Shown: positions 1,637 through 64,000 of the stretch, piece after piece
Layout of the letters: each line of letters starts with the position of its first letter
Numbering within the stretch: the first letter of the stretch is position 1
NCBI GenBank assembly: GCA_947561395.2
Contig: OX387183.1
Span: forward strand, 16,419,402 to 16,483,401
Length of the DNA: 64,000 nt
Direction of reading: 5' to 3'
Source of the DNA: Buxus sempervirens
Taxonomy: Eukaryota; Streptophyta; Magnoliopsida; Buxales; Buxaceae
Made by a program: the position numbers and the translations under genes
The notes under the pieces: generated by a model
Database searches by the model: none
Told to the model about the DNA's origin: nothing
The model's input: only the letters and a program-made list of their open reading frames with translations

Positions 1637-1758
1637 TGGATTGCCCTTTTCCTGAAGGCTTTAATGAACCTTCATCTTCAGGAAAAGCCTCTTTAGAAGG
1701 TTCTCAAAAAAACCAAAAAGATTTTTCAACTTTTTCTTGAAAATCTAAAGCTTTCAAA

Positions 1759-4128: not shown

Positions 4129-4155
4129 TGCGTCACCAAGGTTGAAGCAGAAAGG

Positions 4156-5223
4156 TTGATAGAAACAATGCATGGAGGGGTTTGTGGACCACATATGAAT
4201 GGACACATGCTCGCAAGGAAAATACTGCGATTGGGATATTATTGGTCTACAATGGAGCATGATTGTTGCATACACGTTAAGAGGTGCCACTTGTGCCAAA
4301 TATACGCTGATAATAAGCATGCACCGCCAAATGAGCTGCACAGCATGACCTCGCCATGGCCTTTCTCTATGTGGGGTATTGATGTCATTGGGATGATTTC
4401 TCCAAAAGCGTCTAATGGACACCGGTTCATCCGCGTGGCAATCGATTATTTCATGAAATGGGTTGAAGCTGCTTCATATGCAAATATTACAGGGAACCAT
4501 GTTCTTAAGTTTCTGAAGCACAACATAATTTGTCGCTATGGATTGCCAAAGGCCATAATTTCAGACAATGCTTCAAATATTAAGAACAAATATATGAAGA
4601 AGATGTGTGAGCAGTTTCAGATAACTCATCACAAGTCAGCCCCATACAGGCCAAAGATGAATGGAGCAGTAGAAGCGGCAAACAAGAACATAAAGAAAAT
4701 AATTCAGAAGATGGTAGTGAGTTATAGAGATTGGCACAAGATGCTACCATTTGCTCTCCATGCTTACAGAACCTCAATCCGAACTTCTACTGGGGCAACG
4801 CCGTATTCCTTGGTTTATGGAACGGAGGCAGTCTTACCTGTTGAAGTAGAAATCCCTTCATTGAGAGTGCTTATGGAAACAGAACTTGAAGAAGCTGAAT
4901 GGGTTCAGTCTAGATATGAGCAACTCAATTTGATAGAAGAAAAGCATTTGAATGCGCTTTGCCACGGTCAACTGTATCAGAAGAGAATGGCCAGAGCCTA
5001 CAATAAGAAGGTGAAGCCCAGAGCTTTCCAAGTGGGTAATTTAGTTTTAAAGAAGATATTGCCATTTCTGGAAGACCCTCGCGGAAAGTTTAAGCCAAAT
5101 TGGGAAGGACCTTATGTAGTGAAGAAGGTCCTGTCAGGAGGCGCTCTCATTTTGACAAAAATGGATGGGACAGATTTTCCTGAGCCAATCAACTCCGATG
5201 CGGTCAAGCAATATTTCCCTTGA
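4156..5223 (+). CDS. Element A: integrase (fossil)
   Basis: Open stretch of 355 codons. A zinc-binding HHCC region lies at the N-terminus (His residues near 10-16, CHLC near 50). The catalytic core has Asp near 76 (GIDVIG), Asp near 137 (SDNAS) and Glu near 173 (GAVEAANK), so the last two are 35 residues apart as in the D,D-35-E family. A C-terminal NWEGPYVV (GPY/F) module is present and no chromodomain follows, consistent with Tat. The reading continues almost directly from the RT/RNase H part. It would insert element DNA into chromosomes. Confidence 0.87.
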   Translation: MIETMHGGVCGPHMNGHMLARKILRLGYYWSTMEHDCCIHVKRCHLCQIYADNKHAPPNELHSMTSPWPFSMWGIDVIGMISPKASNGHRFIRVAIDYFMKWVEAASYANITGNHVLKFLKHNIICRYGLPKAIISDNASNIKNKYMKKMCEQFQITHHKSAPYRPKMNGAVEAANKNIKKIIQKMVVSYRDWHKMLPFALHAYRTSIRTSTGATPYSLVYGTEAVLPVEVEIPSLRVLMETELEEAEWVQSRYEQLNLIEEKHLNALCHGQLYQKRMARAYNKKVKPRAFQVGNLVLKKILPFLEDPRGKFKPNWEGPYVVKKVLSGGALILTKMDGTDFPEPINSDAVKQYFP

Positions 5224-6593: not shown

Positions 6594-8876
6594 TGTGAGA
6601 CATGGGAAAAATCACCGGAATGATTATCCCTCCGTCAACACACGGGCTCAACGCAAAAAAATGGAGAGTCGCCACCATTCATGATTTTGGGGTGAGAATG
6701 GACACCAAAGAGTTCAAAAATAAGCAAAAATAGCCAAAAGAAACATTCTAGGATAAAAATAACCCTACTTGAAAATCAAATCCAGAGATGGGTAAGGGGA
6801 TTAGATTATGAACGGGGGAAGGTGTTAGGCACCCCCATTCATCCACACGAAGTGGTAGCCAAGTGTATGTTCATGCAAAAATAAGAAAGCTTGCTAAAAT
6901 CATAGAAAACCTTGAAAAAAGACCAATGTATGATATTTCCACATGAAGATCTAAATGGATTCTAGATCCTCTCTCATATCAATATCATTTCTGGAATATC
7001 TCAAAAGATGGAAATCAAAGCTCAAGTTGCTCAAAACCAAGTTAAATCAAATCCGGAAAATTCGGTAAAAAGTATGCCATTTGCCTTGAAATCATTCAAA
7101 TCCAATTCTAAATTGGATTTGAATGATTTCAAATCCAATTTAGGAGTCTCATGCAAAATTTCACTTCATTCCGATGAAAAATCTAGGAGTTATGCTCCTT
7201 TGAAGTTGCTGCTGGGGATTTTTAAAAGTGGTAAGTGGGCAACTTTGGAAAATTGTCTAGAAAAATCCACTACATAAAAGTCCACGAAATTTGGTTTGAT
7301 TGAAGTTTGTATGGCCATCTTTCAAAAGAAACTAGCCTCATACAAATATCCCTTCGGATGTGCCTTGGGTGGTCTCCCGAACAGGCCCCGAAGATCACAG
7401 ATTTACCCAGAAAAGTACAAATGAACAGTTCTGAGTAAATCGGCTACCAATAATTCAAATGGAATCCAAAAATTATGAAACCAACTGGATTTGAAAATAG
7501 ACTCATAAAGGAATACTCAGAAACAAAAATCACTCAAATCGGACTTAAAACTAACACATGGCGGTCCGTCGAAGTGACAAGTTCTGTACTTAAACCTGAA
7601 CTGTCCACTTAACTTCGACAGAAAGGTGTCAAAAATCCGTTCGATGGAAATTCATGAAATTTGGTGGACATAAACTATACAGCCTCACCTTTCCCATGGT
7701 TCTAGAATCGCTCCAAAATTCATCCGGACGATGAAGTTATGAGCGTCCGAAGTAAGGGTACAGGTGCTGTCCAGTTAGGCCCTTTTTGAAGAAAATCAAA
7801 TCCGAAAATTTATAAAGTGTGTGAGATTCGTGTGAGATGAATCCAAAACCTTTGAAAAGCATTTAAAACACTCCAGAATTTGATTGAGGCCATTTATTGG
7901 AGATTTATCACAATGAATGTAATAAATCCCCAAATGTGAGCCTATTCACCAAAAAAGTGTAATATGTGTGCAAGAGTGAAAAACCAAGCAAGATTAATAC
8001 AACAACATATCATGCATATAGATTCAACAAGAGAGGTTCTAGCATAGCCTAGGGTTCCGTTCCATTATCGTTTCCCTCTGTTCTCTCTCCACGTTAAACA
8101 CGGTTCTTCGAGATAATCAAGGGTACTTTGATTATAGAACGGTTTTCAATCATTCAAAAGCCTTATGCTACATGGGTTCTAGCACTAGGGTCAATCCCCA
8201 GTCTCGTTTCTCCTAGATCCGCCTTCACGTTTTACGGCTAGGGGAGTCTTGAGATACTTTGAGCCGGGGAAGGATTTTCACACACAAAGAAGGCTTTACA
8301 CTACAGAAAGGTAGAAGAAGAGATCTAGATCTAGGAATGTAAATACAGAAATTAAAGAGAGGTTTGAGGCTTACCTGGATTCTGGAAGCACTCCCGCAGC
8401 GATTTCCTTCTTCTCTTGAAGTTCTTCTTTGCGAGAATTCAAAACAAGAGTTGGTTCCAATTTGCTTAAGGTGGAGGCTCCTATTTATAGGCAAAGGCTA
8501 AGGTCATTGGTAGACACAACTTAATGTCTAGAACCCCCCAACCTTAACCCTAAGGTTATTTCCGAGATTTCCCCTCATTTAATGAGGGACATGATGGTAA
8601 CAAGTGATTTCTCTCGGAAAACCCTAATTTTGAGCAAACTTAATGTATCCGGTATATCAGACCGGATACAAAAGGGCCTTAAGGTATCCGGTACATGGTA
8701 CCGGATACACTAAGGCTCACATGTATCCGGTATGAGTAACCGGATACAGGAAGGAGTACTTGTATCCGGCCTGAGTATCCGGATACAGGTAAAAGTTTAT
8801 TTTCTTCAATTTCTGTGCTGGCTTTCAAGGAGATAATGATTTTTGATGATTGTTTGTGCAATTTGGGGTGTCTACA
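6594..8876 (-). mobile_element. Solo LTR B1 (Tat-type), inserted in aORF-1
   Basis: Starts TGTGAGACATG and ends GTGTCTACA on the + strand, so TG...CA ends. It is flanked by a perfect 5-bp duplication GTCTC at 6589-6593 and 8877-8881. A TATA-like box (CTATAAATAGG on the - strand, about 8481-8490) gives its direction. Sequence blocks match LTR B2 and, more weakly, the 3' LTR of element A. No internal region remains, so it is the product of LTR-LTR recombination. Confidence 0.92.
8645..8786. repeat. CCG-N11-CGG dyad array in LTR B1, 39-bp period
   Basis: Four 25-bp inverted repeats of the form GTATCCGG-N9-CCGGATAC start at 8645, 8684, 8723 and 8762, exactly 39 bp apart. The core is again CCG-N11-CGG. 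Loop sequences differ from unit to unit while the arms are nearly constant. The array lies about 160 bp upstream of the LTR's TATA-like box. Confidence 0.85.
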
Positions 8877-16256: not shown

Positions 16257-16502
16257 GTATCCGGTCAAATATACCGGATACACATACCCTTATGTATATC
16301 CAGACTCCAAGGCCGGATACAAAGATTTGCTCGGCGAGATTCGCGTCGATTCTCCGACAAATTCGCGGCGGAATTAAATTTTGGCAATTATTATGTTTTG
16401 TATCTGGCCTTCAAGACCGGATACAAAGGCGGCTTAATGTATCCAGCCTTGGAGGCCGGATACACTTGGTACATAGTGTATCCGGACTCCAAGTCCGGAT
16501 AC
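16257..16502. repeat. CCG-N11-CGG dyad array in LTR C1, 39-bp spacing
   Basis: Five 25-bp units start at 16257, 16296, 16400, 16439 and 16478. Within the two sub-groups the spacing is exactly 39 bp. The last unit ends about 12 bp before the TATA box. Two more units lie at about 18847-18905 further downstream in the LTR. Confidence 0.82.
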
Positions 16503-19500
16503 ATTAAAATTTCTATAAAAGGGGGCAGCAGCCCCCTTTCCAATGGTTTTGGTTGATTCCACTGTTCTTAGACCCCCTTGCCCGACCTTTGCTCATCTGA
16601 ACCTTCCCTCTCCAGCACTCATTGACCTCCACCACCTTCCCACCACCACCCCAAGGCGGCTCCACCCCTTCTCCTCCTCCTTCCTCCTCAACTCTCACTC
16701 ACCAAGTGTCAAGAAGGAGAGGTTGTTTGCTGCTGCTACTGTGGGAGGACTTACCAGCTGCTGTCCATCTTCAAGGGAGTGTCTCCACCTCCACTAAAGA
16801 GCCTAGAACCTCCAGGTAAGGTCCCCTATCATGTTGTGTACCTCATATATTAAATCTGGATTTTTTCGCTAACTTGCTTACTCTTGCGTTTCTTCTTGGC
16901 ATGGGCTCATTTCCTTGTCATGTTAAGCATGCATTTGGTTTTCTTTTCGTGGCATGGGAGGCTCTAAAGGTAAGAGAGTCCCCACGCTAAGTTCGATAAG
17001 GGAATAGAAGGAAGTCCACCCCATTTGGAGTCTCTTCAATCCACTGTTTTTTTTTTTATTTCTAGCAGCATTTTTTTGCCCACTAAAAGAGAGAGCATCT
17101 TCTCTCTAAGGCTCCACCCAACGTACCCCAAGTAACCCCACATTCCCCTTTTAAATCTGACTTTTTTGGTTTTATTTTTCCTTGCTTTGGTCTTGTCATT
17201 TTTCTGGGTGTCTTTGCTGGCCATACCACCATGTTGTTTGCTGATTTTGTTTTGTGGTTGTGTTAGCAGCATGTTCTTTGACCTCTATAAGCATGCTCTT
17301 GTTCTATTTGTTGTTTTATGTCCTCTGACACTATGTATGCTCCCTTTCCCCCCCAAGTTTGCTGCTGCCACCTTGCTTACAGCATGCCTTTTTATTATCG
17401 ATAGCTTGTGTATGCATGCATGTGGTTCCCCTTATCCTAATGTCACCCATGCTAGGATTTGATGAGCATCTAGTTACTGCTGCCTATACATGCTAATTCA
17501 AGTTTTGGTGCATGTAAGCTATTTTTCTTTGAATCACCAAGGGTCAGCCCCTGGGATCATGCTTATGTATGTGCCTGCACCTCCCTTTTTAGTGCTAAGG
17601 AAGCACCTATAAGCTGAGTTCATGGTGTGTATTTTCCAAACCGGCTGCTGTTTGTTACTTGAATCGTTGGTGGTTTCGGCAAGCTGCCCAACCAGCCATT
17701 GGTATGCTCCCCCACCTGTGGTTTGGTTGCTGCCCCACTAAACTGCATGGCAGTAATTTTAGTATATTGGGATGCCTACTTAGCCCTTTCAACTTTTCTG
17801 TTTAAGCCTTGCCAACACCTCTCATGTCCTTCTAATTTGCTGATTTTTTTTAGTATATGTATATAAGCATGCTCCCCACCAATCCCTTTCACCCCACCTG
17901 TATTTTACATGCTCTGGTATGATCAAACCCCCCTTTACAGCCGCTGTTTCCCTCCCATGCATCAGGTTTCTTGTTTTTCTCTTTTCTTCTCCTTGCTTCT
18001 CCTTTGCATGTATGCTCTACACGCTTACTTGTGCAACATGCCGTGCCGTCGCCGACCTTGGTTATATGCTTAAGTCCTTCCCTTGGTGGTTTCGGTTTGC
18101 TGCGCTGTGCATGGGCAGCAAGTTTACTTGGGTGTTTTCTTTCATTGTGTGGTACGTTCACATGCTACCCTCACCCCCACCACCCCCTGGCAATGACTCA
18201 CTGAAGTTGCTGTCCCCGGTAAGTTTGCCGACCCAAATGCCTAAGTTCCCTCCAGCCTAGCCTATTAACCCACGGCCATACCCTCTTCTTTTATTGATGC
18301 TTGCTGTTTTCCTTTTCTAGATAGAAATGCATGCCGTTCTCCTTGGTTCTTTGCTATTTGGGTGTGCGTGAGCGTGGCTTCACTTCTTTGATAAGTACTA
18401 AATTTTGGCATGCATCAGGCCCTGGGAACAGCAGCTGTCCCCAGTTGAAGTGATCATCTCCTAGCATGCCTTACCCAACTCTCATCCCATGCACAACCTT
18501 TTATTAAACCATGCATGCTTGTGTTAGTGCAACATGGTGTAATAGGCCTTGCTGTTGGGCCTTTAACTGCTCCTTGTTTATTGAAGTTAGGCCACCCAAG
18601 TAGGGGCACCAAGACCCCCACACCTTGCAGGAATTGCTGGAAAGAAAGGAGAGGGGCAGCAACCCCCATGCCCTCTTCTCATCACTCATTTGTTAGGAAC
18701 CCCCAAAAATAAAACCAAGGGAGGCTTCTCCCAAATCTGAACCAACGTGGGCCTTCCCAAGGGCCCACAAGACCTGTAGAAGGCCCTACGAAGCCCCTGG
18801 AAGCCACCCCAATGGCCAAAGCCCGAAAAGGCCATTTTTGAGGTGATTCGGTAACTCAGGCCGGATCACCTATAGCCTGCGTGTATCCGGCAACTAAGGC
18901 CGGATACACACAGAAATGTCATTTTTGTGTCTTCTTGATCCTTGGCCGAATTTTGTGATGATTTTGAGCCAAACCAAGTGAACCAATAGGGTTTCCGGGC
19001 CACCCGGAAACCCAACTTGGGACCTGGACCACCGGTCCAATTTAGCACACTAGTGGGCCTTCCAACGGGGCCCACCAAGCCCGATAAACCCAAAAGCATG
19101 CAATTAAGCAACTTAAGTAAAATCAACTAATTGAACCCGGCGGGCCAAACCCAATGTGGCCCACTCGGCCTTGTCTTGTGAAGTAGTGATGCTTAAATTG
19201 CGTGGTTTGGCCGAGACGCAGGGCAAGGGCCTATCGGGCCCGCCAAAGCCCACGAACCAAACCAAGGGTGGGTTTAAACCCTAACCTCATGGGATTCGGG
19301 CTTTCAAGCCCAAAACTGGACTACGGGCCCCAAGCCCAATGTCCAAAAGACTTTGGCAAATATAAATAAGATAAATTAAAGACATTTTGGCAACCAACAT
19401 GGGGGCCCACCCAGGGGCCCGAAAATCAATACCGGCCCGCTTCTTGCATGGAAACCACTTAAGTATCCAACTTGAACAAACTAAATAAAACCAACACACT

Positions 19501-43984: not shown

Positions 43985-45570
43985 ACACTCTGCTTCTTAA
44001 GGGACACATTTCCGTGTCATTCAGAAGTGGGAGACGGCTTTTATTCAAATGGTGGGAGACGTCCTGTTCCTTAGAGGACACATATCCTTGTCTTTCAGAT
44101 GTGGGAGACGCCTTACTCCAAAGAAATGTCAGATGTGGGAGTCGCCTTGCTCCTGTGGGAGTCGCCTTAATCTTTAGTGATTTCAAACGTGGGAGTCGCC
44201 TTGCTCCTTAGAGATTTCAAATGTGGGAGTCACCTTGCTCCTTATAGATTTCAAATGTGGGAGTCACCTTGCTCCTTATGGGAGTCACCTTGCTCCTTAT
44301 GGATTTCAAATGTGGGAGTCGCCTTGCTCCTTATGGATTTCAAATGTTGGAGTCGCCTTGCTCCTTAGAGATTTCAAATGTGGGAGTCGCCTTGCTCCTT
44401 AAAGACTTCAAATGTGGGAGTCGCCTTGCTCCTTATGGATTTCAATTGTGGGAGTTACTGGCTCTATTAATTTGGGGTTGCTTGGCTCCAGGACGCCTTG
44501 CTCTTTGAGAGATGTGCCTTGCTCCTTATGTCTTCAATTCTGGGAGATACTGGCTCCATTAATTTGGGGTTGCCTGGCTCCAGGGATGCCTTCTCCTTTT
44601 TTGTTTCGGAGTCACCTTGCTCCAGGGACACCTTGCCCTTTTAGTCTTGAGAAACGCCTTGCTCTCTTTTGGAGTCACCTTGCTCGAGGGACGCCTTGCC
44701 CTTTTTGGTTTCGAAGTCGCCTTGCTCCAGGGACACCTTGCCCTTTTGATCTTGAGAGACGCCTTGCTCTCTTTCGGAGTCGCCTTGCTCCAGGGACACC
44801 TTGCCCTTTTTGGTTTTGGAGTCGCCTTGCTCCAAGGACGCCTTGCCCTTTTAGTCTTGAGAGACGCCTTGCTCTCTTTCGGAGTCGCCCTTCTCCATGG
44901 ACGCCTTGCCCTTTTTAGTTTCGGAGTCGCCTTGCTCCAGGGACACATTGCCCTTTTGATCTTGAGAGATGCCTTGCTCTCTTTCGGAGTCGCCTTGCTC
45001 CAGGGACACCATGGCCTTTTTGGTTTCGGAGTCGCCTTGCTCCAGGGACACCTTGCCCTTTTTGGTTTCGGAGTCGCCTTGCTCCAGGGACACCTTGCCC
45101 TTTTGATCTTAAGAGACGCCTTGCTCTCTTGGTTTCAGAGAAGCCTTGCTCCAGGGACGCCTTGCCCTTTTGGTTTTGAGAGACGCCTTGCTCTCTTGGT
45201 TTCAGAGACGCCTTGCTCCATTAATATCTTACTTATGTTCTCAATTCTTGGAGACACCTTACTCCATTCTGTTTTCAATTTTGGGAGACAACTTGCTCCA
45301 TTAGTCTTGGGAGACGCCTTGCTCCTGCTGTCTTCAATTCTTGGAGGCACCTTGCTCCATTCTATTTTCAATTTTGGGAGGTACCTTGCTCCATTCAATC
45401 TTCAATTTTAGGAGACACCTTGCTCCTTAAATCTTGGTTTTTTGGGAAATATCTCTCTTCTATCTTCAATTGTCAGAGGCACTTTGCTCCGTTCTGTTTT
45501 CAATTTTTCGGAGACATCTTGCTTCTATCTAGGTAGGGAAACGCCTTGCTCCTTAAGGGACACTCTTTTG
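43985..45570 (-). repeat. Minisatellite in element E with GGAGNCGCCTTGCTCC core
   Basis: About 1.6 kb of diverged tandem repeats. Units of about 34 bp (44100-44450, with TTTCAAATGTGG) grade into higher-order units of 42 and about 100 bp (44580-45170) and then another 34-bp type (45170-45560). The core is itself a weak inverted repeat (GGAG...CTCC). Long open frames occur in several frames on both strands because stops are rare in the unit. I treat it as non-coding. Confidence 0.85.
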
Positions 45571-51937: not shown

Positions 51938-52913
51938 TCCCCAGTGGAGTCGCCAAGCTGTGCACACCTAAATCTGCCTAGTTCGCACACGGGGCGCACG
52001 TGAGTTCGTGCATGCCTCGGGACTTTTGGAGTTGCCACTGCCTGAGAGGTCCAGGCAGACACAGGGATAGCCTATCCGAGTCTAAGTCTGGTCTGCGGCT
52101 TATTAAAGATCTAGCTAAGTCCTCGGTTACATCCGGGGAAGTCCGAAGACACCTCGGCCGGCCCCATCGGTCTGACGGGTCCCTCGGGTCTCAATGGTTT
52201 TTGAGTCAATTTCACCTTTCCTAGAACAGCATGCCACTTTTTGGTCTGGTGGGGCCCTCTGGAAGTTTGGGTCCCTTTTATTTTATTTTATCTTTTTATT
52301 TAGATGAGGTGGATCGGATATAGGTCCCGTTGAAGGACCCATGGGTTGCCAAGTTTAGGCTTGTGCCCAATAGGGTTATTGGGTAACCCTTTCTTAGTAT
52401 ACTTATCAAATTTAATCAAGTTAAGGGTTTACAAGGCCCAACGGGCTTGGTTTGGGCCCTGAGGCAATATAGCAAGTGGCATTGGGCCCGTTTGTTGAAA
52501 ACGGGCCTGGGTTAGGCTAGTCAAAGTGTGGGCCCCATAGGTGGGCACAGGGGGTCTTGGTGGGCCCATTTAGGTCCACAGTCTACAAGTGGGCTTGAAA
52601 CAGCCCAAATTGCTAAAAGGGTTGGGTCATACCAGTTCGGGTTGGTTCAAATCCATCCGGGTCAAAAAAATTAATTTTTAAGTTATTTTATGAAATGACC
52701 GCATTTACTATGCGATTTGGTCTAAACCACAGTTGTAATGCGGTTCAGGCCAGACCGCATACTAAGTGCGGTCATACCTAGACCGCACTGAAAGTGCGGT
52801 TTCTGTCTGATTTTGCAATTTTGCTCCAATTTCGGCCGGGATCAACTTGGTTAGTCTTTTGGGGGGTCCGGCGACTTCTGTTGGGGTTCTAAGCTTTTCT
52901 TTGATTATGCATC

Positions 52914-55651
52914 TGTAAAACCCCAGTTTTGAGTAGAGAAAAAAATATGGAGATTGTATATATATAAAATAATATTGATAATAGAAATAATAGTAGATAA
53001 AATAAAATATATATATATACATAAATATGGACACCTGGATTTATTGATAGGTTTAATCAAAATTTATTTATTGCTGGAGATCGTGGTCATTAGTTGGCAA
53101 GGAAAATGAGGTGGAATATTATTACGTAATTAATTTCGAACTTAAAAATATTGTAGTAAATAGGGAATTAGTAAATAAGTAATCCGGGTAAACTCAAGTG
53201 AATGAGGGGTAGATAAGGAATCCCGAGGGTTAATTGAACACCGGAGGGAAAATTAGGTTTTTGGTTTCGAAAGCTCGTATCGTATTTTTGTAACTGAAGA
53301 AGTTTGGTGTTTTGCGGCTACTGGTGTGGCGATTAGGGTTTCACTGGGAAGAGACGAGAACCGCAAGAGCTACGACCGGATTAGTGGAGTCGGAGATACA
53401 GATTTGAGTGGGTTATTCCTCTCGCGAACAGGGGATCAGTTCGGCTACCTTCGCATCCACACACGCGGTCGGAGTCGGTGATCGGCCATGGTTTGGAATA
53501 ACCTTCTTCTGGGATATAAGCGTAAAAGAGTGAGTAGCACTGATTTACAACTGAGGTTTTAGTTTATTCGTGATGTATTTTGAATTGCATGGTTGTATTG
53601 TGAGTTTCTGGGTTTTCTGGAATACCATGAGTCCGAACATGAGATTGAAATTCAACTTGAAATTAAATGTGTTTAGATTAACTCCAAAACTGGTTGGGAA
53701 GTATTCTAGGAACATTGGGAGTGTATTGGAACAATTACAGACCGAAACAAATCGGCCAGACATAGAGATCTCGAAATAACAGAGACCCGAAAATCGCAGT
53801 GGGTATCCGCCGAGTTGGCGCCCACTTGCGCTCACTTAGGAAGTAGGCGCCCTTTAAAAATATACCATCCGCCGAGCTGGCGCCCACTTGGCGCTCAGCT
53901 CGCGCTCACTTAAAAAGCATGTGTGAATCTCGCGCGAAGCCAGCGCCCATCTCGCGCCCATCTCTCGCTCAGCTCGCGCTCACCTAGCTTCGAGTGAGCG
54001 CATAGTCGATTTTAGCCTGTTTCCTATCCGCCGACTGGCGCTCACCTGGCGCTCACTTCAGGAAGTGAGCGCATACCCAATTATACTTGCCGAATTTGAT
54101 TTTCGACTGAACCAAGAGTATTTTGATGACTTGAGGATTATACCATTTAACCAATCACTTGTTTGGGAACCTTAGAACCTGCATTACTTATTAAATTCCT
54201 AGAGGAAATTCTAGTGGCGAATTCTTAAAGGTTTCTAAGGTTGAGCTTAGGTTAATTGTATGTGTTGTGCTGGATACCAAAACAATAGGAGTTCCTAGTT
54301 TGTTTTATCTTTGAATTTATACACAGTTTTGATCGAGAAATTATTGACTTCTGGTTTCACTTGTTTGGAAAATTCTGAATGTATTGTCTTGGTATAAATA
54401 ACTGTGTTTTGTATTCAAATGGCATGGTTTGCGGAAATGAGAAAATACTGAAAGTATTGAGATACTGCTTGGTCCAGAGGGACAGGTGATGAACTGTGAT
54501 GAGATATACATGATGTGGAATGAATGGTTTTACTTTGATGTTGGAATTGAGATTATACGATGTTTTACTGTTTTGGTTTAGCTTGTCCTGGATCCAGAGT
54601 CTAAGCTTAGTAATGTAATGTTATTGTTGGTTGTTGAAATTGCATGGCCTTGTGTGTTGCCACGACCGGTGTAGAGCAGCCAGAAACCCTGAGTAGGCCT
54701 GGTTGTCAATGCAGAAACCCGGGGAGTAGGCCTGCATTGGATGACGAAACCCTGAGTAGGCCGTCATTTCAGAGTTTCCGAAACCCTGAGTAGGCCGGAA
54801 CTGTGTACATGGAGGTGTGGAGTGTCCACTTGGCATGTTTAATTTATCAACTAAACAATAGTCATGACATTGACCAATGTTGGTATTTGATTTTGTTCGA
54901 CGTGATATGTTTTATTCGCTGGTTTGTTGGTATTTATGGTTCATGGAATATCGTTTACCAATTATTGGGTATTGTACCTCCCGCCGGTGTAGAGCAGCCA
55001 AAAACCCTGAGTAGGTCTGGTTGTCAATGCAGAAACCCGGGGAGTAGGCCTGCATTGGATGACGCGGTCATTTCAATATTCGAAACCCTGAGTAGGCCGA
55101 ATATACATTTGGAGGCGTGGGCATGGTTATGAGAAGACTTTGTGTTATATGATATTGGTATATCTGGAATTATATCTTGAGATACGAAATTATGGTTAAT
55201 TGCTATGTTGTTGTCAGTTAATCATTATTTTATCGATAGCTTCGGGATTGAAAACGGATTGTTATTGCTTGATTTACCTGATGGTTTTCCGCTCTGATAT
55301 GAATTGGATTATTGAAGTTTAGTCGGATTATTCGGAATATGTGTGTTATCATCATTGTATATGGTTTATAACCGTGGCATGTTTTAGAACTGAAATAAAT
55401 GTATTTGTGCATGCATGTGCTGCTCACTGGGATATTCGTATCTCACCCCGTTGCTTTCGTTTTGTTTTCAGATACTCTTCGAGAGCTCGATACTTGCGGG
55501 TAGTTACTTGGACATGTGAGTTTTATTTTAGTTTAGGGAATATTTTAGCGTACTCTGTTATATAGCTATTGTTGTATTCATGTTTTTCCTTCACTCTGAT
55601 TCTGCAGACGAGTTACGGGTTTTTCATGTGACTCGGATCCGGGGCGTTACA
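52914..55651 (+). mobile_element. Solo LTR D2
   Basis: Begins TGTAAAACCCC and ends GGGGCGTTACA, flanked by a perfect duplication GCATC (52909-52913 and 55652-55656). The other LTR of element E shows the empty site. 2738 bp, no coding region. It carries a GCGCTCA/GCGCCCA-rich block (53810-54070) and two constant-loop hairpin arrays (54677-54802 and 54995-55104). Confidence 0.92.
54677..55104 (+). repeat. Constant-loop, variable-stem hairpin arrays in LTR D2
   Basis: Units have the loop AAACCCTGAGTAGGC (15 nt, one variant 17) closed by different self-complementary stems: CAGCCAG/CTGGTTG at 54677-54705, CAATGCAG/CTGCATTG at 54707-54739, GATGACG/CGTCATT at 54740-54768, and AGTTTCCG/CGGAACT at 54773-54802. 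A second array has two of the same units at 54995 and 55025, a unit without its loop at about 55058-55072, and a new stem ATATTCG/CGAATAT at 55076-55104. Confidence 0.88.
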
Positions 55652-57299
55652 GCATCTCCTTCTTTTAGCTCCAAATATCCTTCTTTTGCTGTGTTTTGCA
55701 ATGGGATAAAATCCCCACTTTTCTCCACTTGATCAGATCATTTTCCGGCATACCACACAGCATTTAGAGGAAAGGAAAGAGGGAAATGGATAGGGGGTAC
55801 ATTTGATAATCCGAAGAGGACAATCCCTTCTTAAATTTGCAAATGATACCTAATTAATCAAACCATATTAACTTGCATATTTTATAAACTCACTCTCCTC
55901 CTTTTCCATATAGAGATGCCCATTTCCATGGGATCTCTCATGGCATGCAAAAGTAAGATAAACCGGTTAGTAACGATATAGTATAATAAGAAGAGTTTCA
56001 AATTGTCTAAACAAGAGAATTCCCATATATGTGAGAAAAGAAGGTTACCAAAAGCACTCTTGCACTGTTACCTTTCACTTTTGATGTGTTTGGGTTCTCC
56101 GAGAAATTTGGGCAGTGCCTCCGCACTCTTTTTGGTTCTTCGAAATGAACTTGAAAAGGGCTCACTAGCCTGTGTGTTGATAAAGGTGAAAAGGATGGGA
56201 TTAGGCAGGGTTTAAGGACAAAATGAGGATGTGGGTTGACAGAGTTTGGGCAGGGCTTGGACGTGGGAAGAAGCCAAGAAAAAGAGAGAAAGGGCTGTGG
56301 GGGACCAGCTTCTCTTGAGTGGAGATCAAGGAGGAAGAGAGAAGGGAGGGGTGAGTGAAATGGGAGAGAGCAAAAAGGGGGAGAAGAGAGAGGTTTTTGC
56401 TTGGAATGGAATGGGGGTGGCCCCCCTTTTATAGTTGAAAAAATGACCTAAAATGAATTTTAATCACCTTTTTTTGACTAATTTTAATTTCATGTTTCAT
56501 GTAACTAAAACTTAAAATTTTTTTATTCTCATCCATCCAACTCATTAAGCTTATCCATATTATTGACATGTGGTTGTTATTTTTTGTTTATTTTTTATAT
56601 ATTTTAATTCTTAGATTCTTTAAGTTTTATTGTTATTTTATTCTTAAGATTTTTTTTTGTTAAAAACGCATATGTGTTTTCTATTTTCCATTTTATTTTT
56701 GATTTAATTTAATTGTTAGATATTTACAAAATATTATTATTTTATTATTAGATTTTTATTTTTTGTCCTTTCTTCAATCTGCCACATGTGCAGATTTTCC
56801 GAGATTTTTGACTGTTCATAACTTTCTCATTTGATATTAGATTTCAACAAACTTAGTGGCGTTGGAATCAAATTGAAATCTTCTATCTACTGAGCTAGAG
56901 TTTGGCAGCAAATTCGGGCTTTTTAGCAGAAGTGCAAAGTTGCGTCCCGGAGCCAATTTTGCTCATATCTCCTTATCCGGGACTCCGATTCCAGCAAACT
57001 CAGTTGCGTTGGAGTCATGTCGATGCGCTCTTTCTTCTGATGCCCAATTGAGCAGCTAATTTGGAGTTTTGCAGAAAGCCGTTTTTTGCTATTTCCAGAT
57101 TTGACCAGCCCATAACGTCTTCATCCGGACTCCAATTTGAGCAAACTCAGTGGTGTTAGAACCATATCGGAATCCTCTTTCCAATGGTATGAAGTTTTGT
57201 GGTGAATTCTCCTTGGATCAAAAATTCAATTTTTTGCCCCCTCACGGTTTGACTTTTCATTTTTTGCATTTTTAGGGGTGCAAAAATCAGGTGTCTACA

Positions 57300-59018
57300 C
57301 CACCCGAGCAAAATATGGAATAATTAAATCAAACTTTAAGTTGATAAACCTAAATAACCGATTGGTTCTCCAAAGAAACCAATTGAAACACTAAAAGTCA
57401 TAACTGCTACTACAATCTCTCTCCATAAATATAAAATAAAATAAATTAATGTAAATACAAGAAAACCCTACATCTTCTAAAACTGCAACTCTAAGTCCTC
57501 AACTGCTTCCGTGGTTCTGTTGCTGTGGTAACTGACCTGAAATAATAAATAAGGGTGAGTACAACAACTCAGTAAAGGAAACCACTAGTTCCCTGGTGAT
57601 GCAGATATAATCTAATAGAATAATTTTATACAATAATAAATACTAGCATATAATCTTTTGTTCCTCATCAAAATCATAACATAGTATTCTTCACATATCG
57701 AAGATCACAAAATATGATAAACAATCCATCTCACCTCGCACCTTCACTACCACGTGCCCTACACCAGTATCCTCCATCACCACTGGTAGTGTATTGACAC
57801 AGGTAAGACCATCATGTCCTGCACCGGTTACCCCCATCTTTACTGGGAGACACTGACATGTGGTTCACAACACAATCTATCCTCAATATTTTTATGATGT
57901 CAATCATAATCCCATAAATATTTCTACACATAATATGGATCATACTAAGACATGTCGGGTATCAAGAATTCGCAAATATAATATATATCGATTTCAAATG
58001 CTAACATAAACATCAATATGAGCTTTAAGTTTAAATTATTTGGTTAATTGATACACAAAAGATATACAGCATTTAACATGATAGGACTAAAATATTAAGT
58101 AAGCAATTATAATCTACATATTACGACATAGCGTCACATGCCATTGTTGTTTACTTCATTTGATTTTATTTACTTATTTTATACATATAAACCTCACAAA
58201 CAAAGACAAGCCATTACATATTTATTTATTCATATTATTATAAATATTTTTTTTTTTAAAAAAAATCATAGCATTCGGTGATCATAGTTTTCAACCATGT
58301 GACCATGTCTTTTATTTATTTAGTCTTCAATCATTCGGTTATGTTGTTTTCTCCCAAACCACTTCATTGTTTTAAAAAAAATTTCTTTTTCCATTAACAA
58401 GCCATGGCCGAATAAACTCACACCATGGCCATTCGGCCATGGTCTCAATATTCACACCATGCCCATTCAACCATGGTTTCAAAATTAACGCCATGGCCAT
58501 TCGGTCATGGGTTCTAAAAAATATAAATACAGCACCATGGCATTCGACCATGGTGGAATTCAATGGTGGAGTTCAACATAATAATGAAAAATAAATATGA
58601 CTAATCATGATTAGGGTTTTTAAACAACTAATTTGATAGGTACTAAATCAATCAAGGATTCTACATTAGAATCATAAAAGAAGTAGTAGAAACCCTTACC
58701 AGTTTGAAGAAGATCCTCAATCAGCACCATTCAAATCTTCGAGTTGGATCTGGTACAAGAAAACCCTAATTAGCAAAACCCTAAAACTTCTGATATTTCC
58801 TTCTCTCACTCACGCCCCCTTTCTTTATGTGTTTAGAAAAAAAAAGATACAACGAACCCTAAAATTCCTATTTAGACTCACAATAGAATGTGATTCCGTG
58901 TGTGACCCTATAGGATACTAACGTACACCAGCCAATCAAAAGAAAAGGATTTAAAGACCTTGACTAGTCTACGGTCTGACTCAGGTCAAAGTCAAAGTTA
59001 AATTTTTGGGTCATTACA
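57300..59018 (-). mobile_element. Chromovirus LTR, main part
   Basis: On the - strand it starts TGTAATGACCC at 59018, directly after a purine-rich tract (59019-59031), and runs to the junction with element E; its last 70 bp are at 37410-37479. Total about 1.8 kb. It includes words typical of plant chromovirus LTRs (GAGTTGTTGTACTCACCC on the - strand, near 57553-57572) and a CCATGG hairpin array. Confidence 0.72.
58422..58553. repeat. CCATGG hairpin array in chromovirus LTR
   Basis: Four inverted units like ACCATGGCC-ATTC-GGCCATGGT at about 58422, 58456, 58490 and 58533. Copies differ in one or more arm bases and keep the central ATTC. The first three are about 34 bp apart. Confidence 0.75.
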
Positions 59019-59029
59019 TTTTACCCCCC

Positions 59030-59356
59030 TTAAAGGAAATTTCGTCCTAGAAATTTAAAACATACCTGATCTTCAAATAAATATGGGTGTAACTCCCTTA
59101 TCTTAGACTCTGGTTCCCACGTTGCTTCTAATTTTTCGTGATTATTCCATTGCACCTTGACTAAGTATATTGTCTTTCTTCTCATGACATGCTCCTTGCA
59201 ATCCACAATACGCACAGGCTGTTCCTCATAAGTTACATTCTCCTTAAGCGATATGGTTTGCCAATCAACTACATGTAAAGGGTTAGGTTCATGTTTCTTA
59301 AGCATAGAAATATGAAACACATCATGGACCTTAGATAATTGTGCTGGCAATTTCAA
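59030..59356 (-). CDS. Chromovirus integrase C-terminus with chromodomain (fossil fragment)
   Basis: The - strand encodes LSKVHDVFHISMLKKHEPNP, the conserved end of chromovirus integrase, then a chromodomain (VTYEEQPVRIVD, YLVKVQW, EATWEPE and the closing HPYLF). Such domains steer insertion to marked chromatin. Only this C-terminal part remains; it abuts the polypurine tract and LTR on one side and TRIM sequence on the other. Most like the Tekay/Del group, a tentative placement. Confidence 0.85.
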   Translation of the reverse strand: MKLPAQLSKVHDVFHISMLKKHEPNPLHVVDWQTISLKENVTYEEQPVRIVDCKEHVMRRKTIYLVKVQWNNHEKLEATWEPESKIRELHPYLFEDQVCFKFLGRNFL

Positions 59357-59383
59357 ATTCTAATAAATATTAAATATTAAAAA

Positions 59384-60138
59384 TGGTATAGGAGCTGGAT
59401 CTAGGTCCAGTAGTCCGTGGCTGGTGTGGGTCCTAGCGTTGCCCATAGGAGGTAGTTAGACCGATTAGGGCGGGCCCATGAGGGGCTAGCAGGCTTCTAG
59501 GTGGCCACTGCACGGGGACGTGCAGCTCTGAAGGGGGGGGGGGGGGAGATTGTGATATCCCAATCCCACATTGGAAATAGATGAATACCCGGTATGGTAT
59601 AAGAGTCAGGGAGAACACTTAACCAAGTGAGGCGCCTTTTAAGGACAAAACCGTGCGGCCTTAAGCCCAAAGCGGACAATACTTCGTTTGGTTGGGTCGT
59701 TACAAACTGGTATGGTATAAGAAACTAGGAAAACACTTAACTTAGCGAGGCGCCTTTTGAGGACAAAACCATGCTGGCTTAGGCCCAGAGTGGACAATAC
59801 CTCGCTGGGTTAGGTCGTTACAAATGGTATCAGAGCTAGATTCGGGTCCAATAGTCCGTGGCTAATGTGGGTCCTAGCATTGCCCGTAGGAGGTGGTTGG
59901 TCCGACGAGGGCGGGCCCATGAGGGGCTGGCAGGCTTCTAGGTGGCCACTGCATGGGGACGTGCAACTCTAAAAGAGGGGAGATTGTGATATCCCAATCT
60001 CACATTGGAAACTAATGAATACCCGGTATGATATAAGAGACTGGGAAAACACTTAACTTAGCGAGGTGCCTTTTGAGGACAAAACAGTGCGGGCTTAGGC
60101 CTAGAGTGGACAATAACTTGTTGGGTTGGGTCGTTACA
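59384..60138 (+). mobile_element. TRIM cluster: two internal parts and three LTR copies
   Basis: Order: internal part (59384-59550) ending in a G tract, full LTR (59551-59704, 154 bp, TGTGATATCC...GTCGTTACA), a second shorter LTR copy (about 59709-59822), a primer site AATGGTATCAGAGC (59823 on, initiator Met tRNA type), internal part, and a third LTR (59985-60138, 154 bp). No coding capacity. The arrangement suggests unequal recombination between TRIM copies. The same family is at 33900-37080 in reverse. Confidence 0.8.
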
Positions 60139-60295
60139 TTTTAAATAGTGAAATTTTACACCCGACTCAAAAGACATATGCTAACAACTAATAGTGGGCT
60201 ACCCTTTAGTGGGTTAGAATAAAAGGGGCAAAGTTGTCAATATATGTCTTTTTCTCTTACCACTCGTTGGAAAAACCTTTAGAAGGGAGATACTA
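60139..60295. other. Anonymous AT-rich spacer
   Basis: Nothing recognised. Confidence 0.4.
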
Positions 60296-60545
60296 TTACA
60301 CACAGCAAACCTCAAGGTAGTAAACCACTATTTCAAAAACCTCAAGGGGGAAGTGGGATTGTCTGAAACCTCAATGGGTAAACTATAATTATTCCTTAAA
60401 AATAAGATAATAATTTGAAGGACCTTTCTGCCTTTTATTCTACCAAAAAAAAAATAATAATAATAATAATAACTTGAAGTAAACCTTCCAAGCAGTCTCC
60501 AGGGCTTATACCTGTCAATTAATTCAGTAGTTCTATATATTCTAT
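60296..60545 (+). repeat. Dispersed repeat, copy 2 (CCTCAAGG-rich)
   Basis: Parallel to 31677-31862, with an extra A-rich/AAT microsatellite stretch near 60448-60472. Same orientation. Confidence 0.65.
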
Positions 60546-60589
60546 TGCATGAATAATATTAAGTAACCCATATGCACGAATAATAACTG

Positions 60590-61774
60590 CAAGAGTCAAA
60601 GCTATGGCACCTTACAAATTTCCAGGACCCGACGGCTTTCAAAGAGTCTTCTTTCAATCCTTTTGGGATGTTTTTGGTGGTGATATTGTTAACATGGTTC
60701 AAGATTTTTTCACCTCAGCCCATATGCCTCCTAAACTAAATCATACATACATTGTTTTGATCCCCAAGATAGCGTCGCCGAGGAGATTATCGAACTACTG
60801 CCCAATTTGTGCAATTTCTCATACAAGATTATCACCAAACTACTTGTAAACCACATCCAGCCTTTTCTTACTAAGCTGATCTCTCCAAATCAAGGGGCAT
60901 TTGTTCCAGATCATTATATCAAGGACAACATTCCGGTCATGAAATCTACCATCATTTTCACAAACAGAAGAAGCCGCAGAAGCACACTTCAAGAAAATTT
61001 ACAGGGAATAAAGGTATGTTTGCACTTAAAGTGGATTTCTCAAAGGCATATGATCGATTGAGTTGGCGATTCCTTCAACAGGTCCTGCAAGCTTTTGGTT
61101 TCTCTACTAATGTATCTTCTTTAATTATGACATGTGTTAGTACTGTTTCGTATAGTATTTTATTAACGGCTCACCTATGGGACACATCCAAGCAACAACA
61201 AGACTCCGACAACGTGATCCCTTGTCGCCATATCTTTTCATTATGTGCCAACAAGTTCTATCGGTAGCTATCACTCGATTGGAGTTGGATGGGCGTTTTC
61301 AAGGCATAAAAATCCGGCGTGGAGGTATATCAATATCACACCTTATGTACGCTAATGAAGTTGGCATATATGGCCATACTTCGGAACGAGAAACTCACTA
61401 TTTGATACAGCTCATCCACAAGTATTGCTGTGAATTTGGCCAAGATATAAACCCTAATAAGTCTTATCTTATGTTCAGCAAGAATACACCTAAGGCCAAG
61501 CATATTAAAATTGTTCAAATGTTAAACATTCCATCGCAAAAGGGCCAAAATAAGTATCTAGGTATTCTAGTCCTCATAAAGAAGCCGACACCTAAGGACT
61601 ACAATGGGCTAATTGATCGAGTGACTAAACGGCTAGCCAGATGGAAAGGATTATTATTATCTCAAATGGGCCGCCTTGTGCTGATTAAATCTATTTTAGG
61701 GGCCCAAGCTAATCATTTTATGCAATGTTTTATGCTTTCATAGGTTGTGCTTAATAAGTTGGATCAGATTTCTT
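60590..61774 (+). mobile_element. LINE reverse transcriptase fragment, cut by LTR D3
   Basis: Non-LTR retrotransposon RT of the plant L1 type. Motifs in order: PGPDGFQ and FFQSFWDVFG (60604 on), LIPKI and NYCPI, ISPNQGAFV (60880s), VDFSKAYDRLSW (61027 on), LRQRDPLSPYLF (61198 on) and the catalytic region HLMYANEVGIY (61335 on), where the usual ADD is ANE. The reading moves between frames near 60820-60850, near 60990-61015 and near 61175, and meets a stop at 61741-61743. It continues as VLNKLDQIS to 61774, where LTR D3 begins. The endonuclease and the C-terminal half are absent. Confidence 0.87.
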
Positions 61775-64000
61775 TGTAGAATCCTAAATTTTAGAAAATA
61801 ATAAATAAATCTAGAAATTTGAAATAAATCTAATGGTTAAATATGGTATAAATAAAGAAAGGGTATTTCAATCTTTTCCCAATGGCCAATTACTAAATTC
61901 ATTGAATAAATAATTATTAGAATTAAAATAATCAATTAGATTTAAATTGGATTAAATTTGGATTTAAGTAGCTTAATTTATAGCTTAAAAGATTAGAAAA
62001 GGGCCTAATTGTAATTATACTTAATTAGGGGCCTTAAATTTGAGGATAAGAGGAGTTTTGGGGTGTTTTGGTAATATTTGAAAATGAGGAATTAAATTAG
62101 CACGAAAATAAATAAAAATAGAAGTTTCTTATAAATTAGATTTAAGAGAAAAGAATTAGAATGAGAGTTGTCCTGAAATAGGGAAGTTTTCCAAATAGAA
62201 TTAGGAATCCTAATGGGGTTAGTTGAAAAGTTTCCTAATCCAATGAGAACTTCTATTTGGGTGAGTCTATATAAGGAAGGCATTAGGGAAGATTTTGGGT
62301 TGTTACTAATTCAAACGTGTGGAGATCCCTAGAGTTGTGCGGAAATTTCAGAAAATTAGCTATACCTTGAGGTTCATTGGAAAAGAAAGATTTCATGTTA
62401 TTAAGGCAAGTAGTAACACCCTTTTTGTTTAATCGATGCATGGTTTTTATATTTGGTTGTTTAAGAGTGATTAGAAAAGTATGTGTGATGATTTAGATGC
62501 AAAACCCTGTATTTAAGTTTTATTTATTCATAGATTTGAGGGATTTCAGGCAAATTTCATAAAGCTGTCAAGTATGAGTAAAATATGGTTTTTTAGTAGA
62601 TTTTGTATGAGATTTATTGTAAAGCCATGTTTTGATGTGTTTGGTATGATCTAGCATGTTTAAAGAATGATAATACATGATTTAGAAGTGACTTGAGAAG
62701 TTGGATTGGTGTTATTTGAATTTAGTTTGAAAATTTTCAAAATTTCAGATTTTTCCAGATTTATAAAGACGCCTAGGATCATGCTTGAGCACTAGGCCAG
62801 GCCCCATAATATTTAGGCAGGTCGTCCAACGTCTCTCGAGTTCTAACTCAAGCGCTCCGCTTGTGTTTTTTTTTTAAAAAAATTAGAACCCAAAACCTAG
62901 AATTTGATTTAAGCCGAACACCGGGGATGTGGCTCGAGCGCCACGTCAAGCATCCAACCCAGATTTGTTTATTTTAACCTTTTGACCTAGTTTTTTATTC
63001 TAAAATGATTTTTATGGAATTCCAACTCATGTACCAACTATATTAGGGTATTTTGAGAGTGGTTGCACTGGCCAAATAATTTTATCCAATTTATTGAATA
63101 TTTTGGGTACATTTTGGTGGAATAGGTAGAATAGGACTAGAATAGTGGACTTGGTGGATTCAAAGGGGTTTTTATTATTTCTTTTTTATTCCTATAGCTT
63201 TCTAAGATGGTTTTAAACATGTTTTGATCTCTGGAATTATTCAAATTCACATTTAATAGATTTTGGGTATTTGATTAGATATTTATGGTTTATTGAACCT
63301 TGTGGACTTATGAAATATGATAGGATTTTCAATGTAAATAGTGTTATTTGTTATCTCCATGGGAGAGTATTTCTACCAAGAGGGCAGTGGTTGTTGATTT
63401 ATATCTATGAAGGAATGATTTAAGTTATGATGGCAATTATTGACATGTATTTTGAAACTATATAACTGTTTTTGGTTGACTTGTGTCTTGCGGTCTTAGC
63501 TCATTATAGATCTATAGTTTAGCTAGATAGTGAGATCTATATATCTTTGTTTGGATTAATTTTAGTTCCATTTATGTGTTTCCTCCGAGAAGGAGAGACT
63601 ATTCCAAGAGGGAATGAGCTGCAGTGATCTGTTTCCACCAAGATTTTGAGGTCTTTTGTTGGATATGTTGCAGCGTTGTTCTTTGACTGAATTGTAATTG
63701 CCAACTTAATATATGTATCAAGTTTAAGTGATCCGTTGTGTAAAGCGAAGTCCAAAACCTAGAGTAAGCTGGCTTCGTGATGACCGAAACCCAGAGTAGG
63801 CCGATTCATCACACATAAGAGCGTGAGGGGGCGATTGTAACTAGGGTTAATCTCTCAAAGTGGTCATATTTTACGAGTCCTGTGATGTCACAATTGTATG
63901 GCCTTGTTGTGTGAAGATTATGTTGGTTTTGGATTGTAACTTGTTGGATTTGGATTTGGATTTTTATATTATTTTCTGGTTATGAACTTTTAGTTTAATC
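61775..64000 (+). mobile_element. LTR D3, right end outside window
   Basis: Begins TGTAGAATCC inside the LINE; the five bases before it (TTCTT, 61770-61774) are the expected target duplicate. A TATA box (CTATATAAGG) lies at about 62268-62277. Like D1 and D2 it has a block with GCGCTC/GAGCGCC words (62765-62960) and constant-loop hairpins near 63746-63812. Only the first 2226 bp are in the window, so solo or full element cannot be told. Confidence 0.72.
63746..63812 (+). repeat. Constant-loop hairpins in LTR D3
   Basis: Unit 1 (63746-63777) has stem CGAAGTCCA/TGGCTTCG (one bulge) and loop AAACCTAGAGTAAGC. Unit 2 (63777-63812) has stem GTGATGACCG/CGATTCATCAC (internal mismatch) and loop AAACCCAGAGTAGGC. 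Confidence 0.78.

Follow-up and report, generated by a model that had tools for sequence, protein, structure and literature searches.

Two LTRs in the window analysed here, a 64,000-nucleotide stretch of Buxus sempervirens DNA, carry short hairpins that present one loop on stems of different sequence, each stem pairing with itself. That the loop stays constant while the stems covary is a genuine and well-supported feature, and the arrangement is seen again in another array and another LTR. The window contains nine copies of the loop, all on the plus strand and every one flanked by self-complementary arms. Seven of them lie in two arrays within one LTR (LTR A), and two lie in an LTR-like repeat further downstream (LTR B). 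Five of the nine loops are exactly AAACCC[T/A]GAGTAGGC, two have two extra bases and one has an altered last base. The loop at 63755 in LTR B departs most, with three differences from the first-noted loop; the other LTR B loop is the T-to-A form.

LTR A (52914..55651, plus strand) is a solo LTR of 2,738 bp, running from TGTAAAACCCC to CCGGGGCGTTACA and nested inside a larger repeat. It has TGT...ACA ends and a 5-bp GCATC on both sides, features that were checked on LTR A only. The target-site duplication copies occupy 52909..52913 on the left and 55652..55656 on the right, and are recognised by comparison with an empty site: near 38441 the host repeat is present without the insertion, and its sequence runs straight through with a single GCATC. 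By eye, a GC-rich run with GGCGCTCACTT and GCGCCCATCTC repeats is visible in LTR A at 53800-54060, and a GC-rich stretch with GAGCGC lies in LTR B at 62770-62970, at a similar distance upstream of the hairpins. Elsewhere in the window, positions 1744-5223 hold a retroelement pol with RT_RNaseH and RVT_3 (two RNase H-like domains) and an integrase, which from its domain make-up we take to be of the Tat/Ogre type.

Array 1 (54676-54803, plus strand) comprises four hairpins and is preceded by a 5' box, CCGGTGTAGAGC, at 54666..54677. The arms are GCAGCCAG and CTGGTTGT in hairpin 1 (54676..54706), CAATGCAG and CTGCATTG in hairpin 2 (54707..54739), where the loop is two bases longer, GATGACG and CGTCATT in hairpin 3 (54739..54769), and AGTTTCCG and CGGAACT, with a one-base bulge, in hairpin 4 (54773..54803). 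An earlier note on this DNA had described four adjacent units sharing the same loop; three of the four do carry AAACCCTGAGTAGGC exactly, and the second (54707-54739) has AAACCCGGGGAGTAGGC instead. TRF reports a weak 33-base repeat.

Array 2 (54994-55105, plus strand), likewise preceded by CCGGTGTAGAGC (54984..54995), contains three loop-bearing hairpins and one loopless hairpin; its loops are one altered at the last base, one longer variant and one exact copy. The first hairpin (54994..55024) is a near-copy of hairpin 1 of array 1 with two changes and the innermost pair gone, and the second (55025..55057) is identical to 54707-54739. Compared with 54740-54768, the third (55058..55073) is missing its loop and reads GATGACG-CGGTCATTT; its arms are retained, being paired in the fold of array 2 and unpaired in the short single-unit fold. 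The fourth (55075..55105), with arms ATATTCG and CGAATAT, is still paired though unlike hairpin 4 of array 1. Several paired positions differ between these two hairpins (e.g., C-G to T-A and T-A to A-T, as judged by eye) and their loops are identical. The arrays are further linked by an 81-base near-copy (54666-54746 versus 54984-55064, 98% identical). Since hairpins 1 and 2 are near-identical in both arrays, and since part of a stem is common to 54740-54768 and to 63777-63813 in LTR B, the independent stems number only about seven.

LTR B (61775..64000, plus strand) begins with TGTAGAATCC and runs off the end of the window. Its start (~61775) was placed from the sequence, and neither a target-site duplication nor a second LTR partnering it was seen within the window. 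Hairpin 1 (63746..63777, plus strand) has arms CGAAG(T)CCA and TGGCTTCG around the loop AAACCTAGAGTAAGC, and hairpin 2 (63777..63813, plus strand) has arms GTGATGACCG and CGATTCATCAC around AAACCCAGAGTAGGC. A possible 5' box, CCGTTGTGTAAAGC, is present at 63733..63746 (plus strand); as a pattern it is no better than chance, with two matches when one mismatch is allowed versus 1.95 expected.

Anchored stem scores of all nine loop-bearing units fall between 5.0 and 8.5 (mean 7.06), G-T wobbles included, which agrees with the suggestion of the earlier note that the unrelated stems each pair with themselves. The control set consisted of 113 loci with exact-loop matches, 13 from viral contigs and 100 from bacterial genomes, all of which were used; their stem scores average 1.32, with a maximum of 5.5. 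These matches are taken as chance copies because each locus holds a single match. One control locus (L056) shows two relaxed motifs, 78 bases apart. As the search patterns had fixed part of the innermost pair, the score was also computed with that pair excluded, giving 5.5-7.5 for the units and at most 5.0 for the controls. The same geometry applied elsewhere in both LTRs (4,482 positions) reaches 5.0 at 5.5% of positions and 6.5 at 1.1%, with a maximum of 8.5. When arms were re-assigned among the eight distinct units, two of 40,320 permutations equalled the true total, one of them being the identity; according to the score matrix, the other swaps units 54684 and 55002, whose 3' arms are identical. 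Chance palindromes were rejected on the basis of the stem scores against the 113 controls, the arm swaps and the 4,482-position background.

The arm-swap, alignment and covariation analyses used eight of the nine loop-bearing units. Unit 55033 was left out because its loop and arms are the same as those of 54715, and the loopless hairpin at 55058-55073 stands outside all stem counts. Paired cells make up 84.4% of the eight-unit alignment versus 52.6% after shuffling, with none of 500 shuffles as high; the observed figure is a low one because the columns are ungapped over the bulges in 54773, 63747 and 63779. The earlier note had held that pairing no better than in shuffled flanks would count against its reading, and that outcome was not seen in these copies from one window. 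Double changes occur in all eight outer stem pairs (2/500 shuffles match), among few independent copies. The covariation score of the eight units is 0.768 versus 0.227 when shuffled (0/500 reach it), and is at most 0.268 when the partner is slid by 1-3 columns. For the six LTR A units alone, with the inner helix included, it is 0.760. The controls for pairing and covariation model relatedness only partly, and all copies come from a single 64-kb window. Independently of the motif, a scan for hairpins with a common loop of at least 7 bases and differing stems ranked the AAACCC-type loop first, with four stems; the same scan on five shuffles gave no loop with more than two stems.

When LTR A and LTR B are aligned locally, the top-scoring match is a portion of the hairpin module itself, and a self-comparison of the window (pieces >80 bases, E 1e-8) found no other similarity between the two. 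A covariance model of the six LTR A units, searched against 55652-64000, recovers both LTR B units with 28.0 and 22.7 bits (E 6e-07 and 3.1e-05). A sequence-only model from the same alignment gives them 20.1 and 8.6 bits, the two kinds of model being calibrated differently. In 93 of the 113 control loci the covariance model scores up to 27.5 bits, and eight of these matches attain at least 22.7 bits, the level of LTR B hairpin 1. Because the control loci were chosen for the exact loop, the bit score alone cannot set this hairpin apart from them; the stem test, unlike the bit score, does separate it.

The outer stem is the MFE structure of all eight distinct units when folded singly. A small inner helix forms in seven of the eight, five in one register and two shifted by one base, and is absent from the single fold of LTR B hairpin 1. 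The sole double change in the inner helix, one C-G to U-A, is also found in that hairpin. The consensus anatomy consists of a stem, an AAAC bulge opposite one C, a CC/GG pairing and NGAGUA. Single-unit folds have z values of -0.43 to -3.02, the weakest being 54773-54803 (z -0.43, 62/200 shuffles equally good). At the level of whole arrays, MFE folds show no gain in stability over shuffles (z -0.35, 0.36 and 0.25), which disfavours a very stable structure.

A possible relative of the LTR A arrays, with another loop, is found on the minus strand in LTR C (59018 to ~57300). Two tandem units there (57725..57870, minus strand) carry the box CYGGTGYAGRRC at 57816-57827 and 57756-57767, and have arms CCACATGTC / GACATGATGG and CACTACC / GGTAGTG. 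The box pattern, which was composed after the sites were seen, has four matches in the window, all at LTR A or LTR C modules, versus 0.14 expected; none of 100 shuffles reaches four. The LTR C fold is mildly better than shuffles (z -1.23, 22/200 equally good). That the LTR A loop and the LTR C box may be one motif is a guess. Several palindromes of the kind ACCATGGCC-GAAT-GGCCATGGT, with similar stems and the loop GAAT, were also seen by eye in LTR C at 58403-58575 (minus strand).

Another retroelement in the window holds an array at 44142-45541 that is unrelated to the LTR A arrays but obeys the same rule of constant loop and variable stem. The loop pattern [AT][CG][AG][CA]C[TA]T[GT], mostly in the form [AT]C[AG]CCTTG (loop CRCCTTG), matches it 40 times; the match at 45012 is an overlapping one and does not represent a unit. 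The innermost four stem pairs are GGAG/CTCC in 19 cases, AGGG/CCCT in 7, AGAG/CTCT in 4 and others in 10, and none of 20,000 arm permutations matches the observed pairing. As many of the units are near-copies, the evidence is weaker than that for LTR A. The reverse design, hairpins of the form GTATCCGG...CCGGATAC with constant stems and changing loops, is present at 8645-8786, 16257-16502 and 18883-18907.

The matrices used to score splice sites were approximations for plants based on general knowledge. With these, 3' candidates in LTR A lie ~365 bases (55471) and ~430 bases (55536, score 10.6) past array 2, the nearer one being ATCTCACCCC...TTTTGTTTTCAG (55440..55471, plus strand; score 9.7; last base 55471), and the 5' candidates are weak only. 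The best-scoring 5' and 3' sites of LTR C (58699 and 57537) stand in the correct order around its units. The scan misses the 3' part of LTR B, beyond the window end. The order of sites in LTR C and the 3' candidates in LTR A raise the possibility of an intron within the LTR that would include the arrays, which would then persist only in unspliced RNA. In both LTR A and LTR C a hairpin, its stem unlike that of the other, covers the likely branch site just upstream of a pyrimidine tract: TGGGATA-TTCG-TATCTCA at 55428-55445 (plus strand) in LTR A and TGAGT-TGTTGT-ACTCA at 57556-57571 (minus strand) in LTR C, each before the tract of a presumed 3' splice site. As possible start signals, TATA-like matches lie upstream of the hairpins in 9/10 cases in LTR A (including 54393) and 6/6 in LTR B (including 62268). 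AATAAA is found at 55394, downstream of the LTR A arrays, and also upstream of the hairpins in both LTR A and LTR B; given these upstream copies, the arrays may lie outside the genomic RNA.

It is somewhat probable, in our view, that transcripts of a group of plant LTR retrotransposons carry these arrays as a structured RNA element, which serves as a recognition platform for Gag or a host factor. Among the accounts that the earlier note offered for a constant loop on covarying stems was selection for a structured RNA, and this one gains from the recurrence in a second array and a second LTR. The reading draws on one window, two to three LTRs and ~7 independent stems. We infer that the arrays are transcribed and act as plus-strand RNA. 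Each unit would comprise an outer stem of ~7-9 pairs whose sequence varies freely so long as pairing is preserved, a bulge, AAAC, with one C opposite it, and a small conserved head, CC-NGAGUA-GG. Because the stems are free while the head is fixed, the head would be the part that is recognised, and the stems would merely hold it up. Two to four units side by side could together make each array a multivalent platform for binding. The element's own Gag would be its likeliest reader, the array then marking genomic RNA for packaging or for the pairing of two genomes, although this Gag and packaging reading, taken by itself, is tentative. A host export or splicing factor would be the next most likely reader, and is considered because the arrays of LTR A and LTR C, at their putative intron position, seem to lie a few hundred bases upstream of a 3' splice site and hence in unspliced RNA only.

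The main rival for the matched stem changes is template switching during copying, which rewrites one arm from the other, so that mutation alone would keep the stems paired with no structural selection. Retroelement copying is prone to template switching, and slippage or copying did happen here, as seen in the lost loop at 55058-55073 and in the 98% identical 81-base copy. Such a mechanism has been proposed and supported for RNA genes, according to the available part of one report (PMC8794818). However, it leaves unexplained the near-unchanged loop in LTR B, a repeat otherwise without a match to LTR A, as well as the common bulge and the inner CC/GG. We regard it as unlikely in place of selection; the two may coexist, and the palindrome-repairing copying raised in the earlier note may in that sense accompany a selected structure. 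If a short repeat had simply been duplicated in tandem and its flanks paired by chance, the adjacency of the units and the weak TRF repeat would fit, but the arms vary while the loops stay, and 9/9 units reach a score seen at 5.5% of comparable positions. This account is scarcely credible, and simple duplication was rejected because arm swaps abolish pairing; the earlier note had likewise held that it would keep stems alike.

A DNA-level element, in which cruciforms or single-stranded DNA hairpins are landing sites or protein targets and RNA is irrelevant, is decidedly improbable. Palindromes function in DNA too, and Watson-Crick cores are kept in 9/9 stems (Watson-Crick-only scores of 3.5-8.0). 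Against this, G-T pairs raise the stem score in 6/9 units (5/8 distinct units) and A-C pairs used instead in 2/9 (2/8 distinct), as a plus-strand RNA predicts; the numbers are small and the preference for plus-strand RNA is mild. Stems this short, closing loops of 15 bases, are poorly suited to forming cruciforms. The cruciform alternative of the earlier note is the less likely one. A role in splicing only, with the array inside an LTR intron showing or hiding a 3' splice site and no part in packaging, would accommodate the ordered sites around the LTR C units, the 3' candidates in LTR A and the hairpins before pyrimidine tracts; set against the weak 5' candidates in LTR A and the approximate matrices, it is quite unlikely.

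The structured-RNA reading has parallels, each of them partial, among known systems. According to the available parts of two papers, several RNA viruses and HBV package their genomes via repeated stem-loops with one loop motif, e.g., -RGAG- in HBV (PMC7612645, PMC6281560). There, as here, several hairpins with unlike stems show one short loop motif, which in those viruses is read by the capsid. The present units differ in standing side by side in an LTR and in their longer loop (15 bases, with a bulge and an inner helix), and their protein reader is putative. A protein search with the pol of another element in the window against viral contigs gave no match.

Retroviral Psi hairpins are few and are not known to form a run of like loops. 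BARE is said, in the available part of PMC3735527, to carry dimerisation and packaging signals. Like Psi and the BARE signals, the arrays would be cis-acting signals in an LTR or leader, with spliced RNA to be kept from particles; unlike them, LTR A is a solo LTR, with no primer-binding site or gag tied to it. In some retroviruses, conservation of a long R region has been linked to stem-loops in an LTR comparison (PMC3601003, as far as its available part goes).

Among plant elements, the Retand tandem arrays are likewise short repeats in non-coding parts of Gypsy elements, but they lie between pol and the 3' LTR and not inside the LTR (PMC11963269, available part). The array at 44.1-45.5 kb may be of the Retand kind. 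The words hairpin, stem-loop and secondary structure are all absent from the available part of the Retand text. Plant retroelement repeats can also contain structured RNA in the form of retrozymes, with their hammerhead ribozymes (PMC4918200, available part). Unlike what would be expected of these, no Rfam family reaches the gathering score anywhere in the window. At E 5 the hairpins remain unmatched, the sole weak match being a bacterial sRNA at 54829-54881 (minus strand, E 0.45), outside the hairpins. A hammerhead or other known Rfam RNA was rejected, there being no family-model match to the hairpins. In a literature largely without subscription journals, none of six strings written out from the loop occurred in any paper, and among the matches listed no earlier description was recognised of plant LTR arrays that combine a constant loop with variable stems. 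Whether plant elements possess CAR-like export motifs, or one kind of them, is called unclear in a 2025 review, whose text, in the part available, does not mention hairpins or secondary structure (PMC12786077).

A more general design is suggested by two unrelated examples in one window, the loop AAACCCNGAGTAGGC of LTRs A and B and the CRCCTTG loop, with perhaps a third in LTR C. It is possible, if doubtful, that plant LTR retrotransposons commonly bear element-specific arrays of fixed loops on drifting stems, which would be multivalent protein-binding platforms, tagging the unspliced genomic RNA to be packaged or exported. Little is known of how plant LTR retrotransposons recognise their own genomic RNA among other RNAs, and these hairpins, short, repeated and covarying around a fixed head, offer binding and packaging assays a concrete candidate signal. 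Stem evolution in the arrays also lends itself naturally to telling selection apart from repair by template switching.
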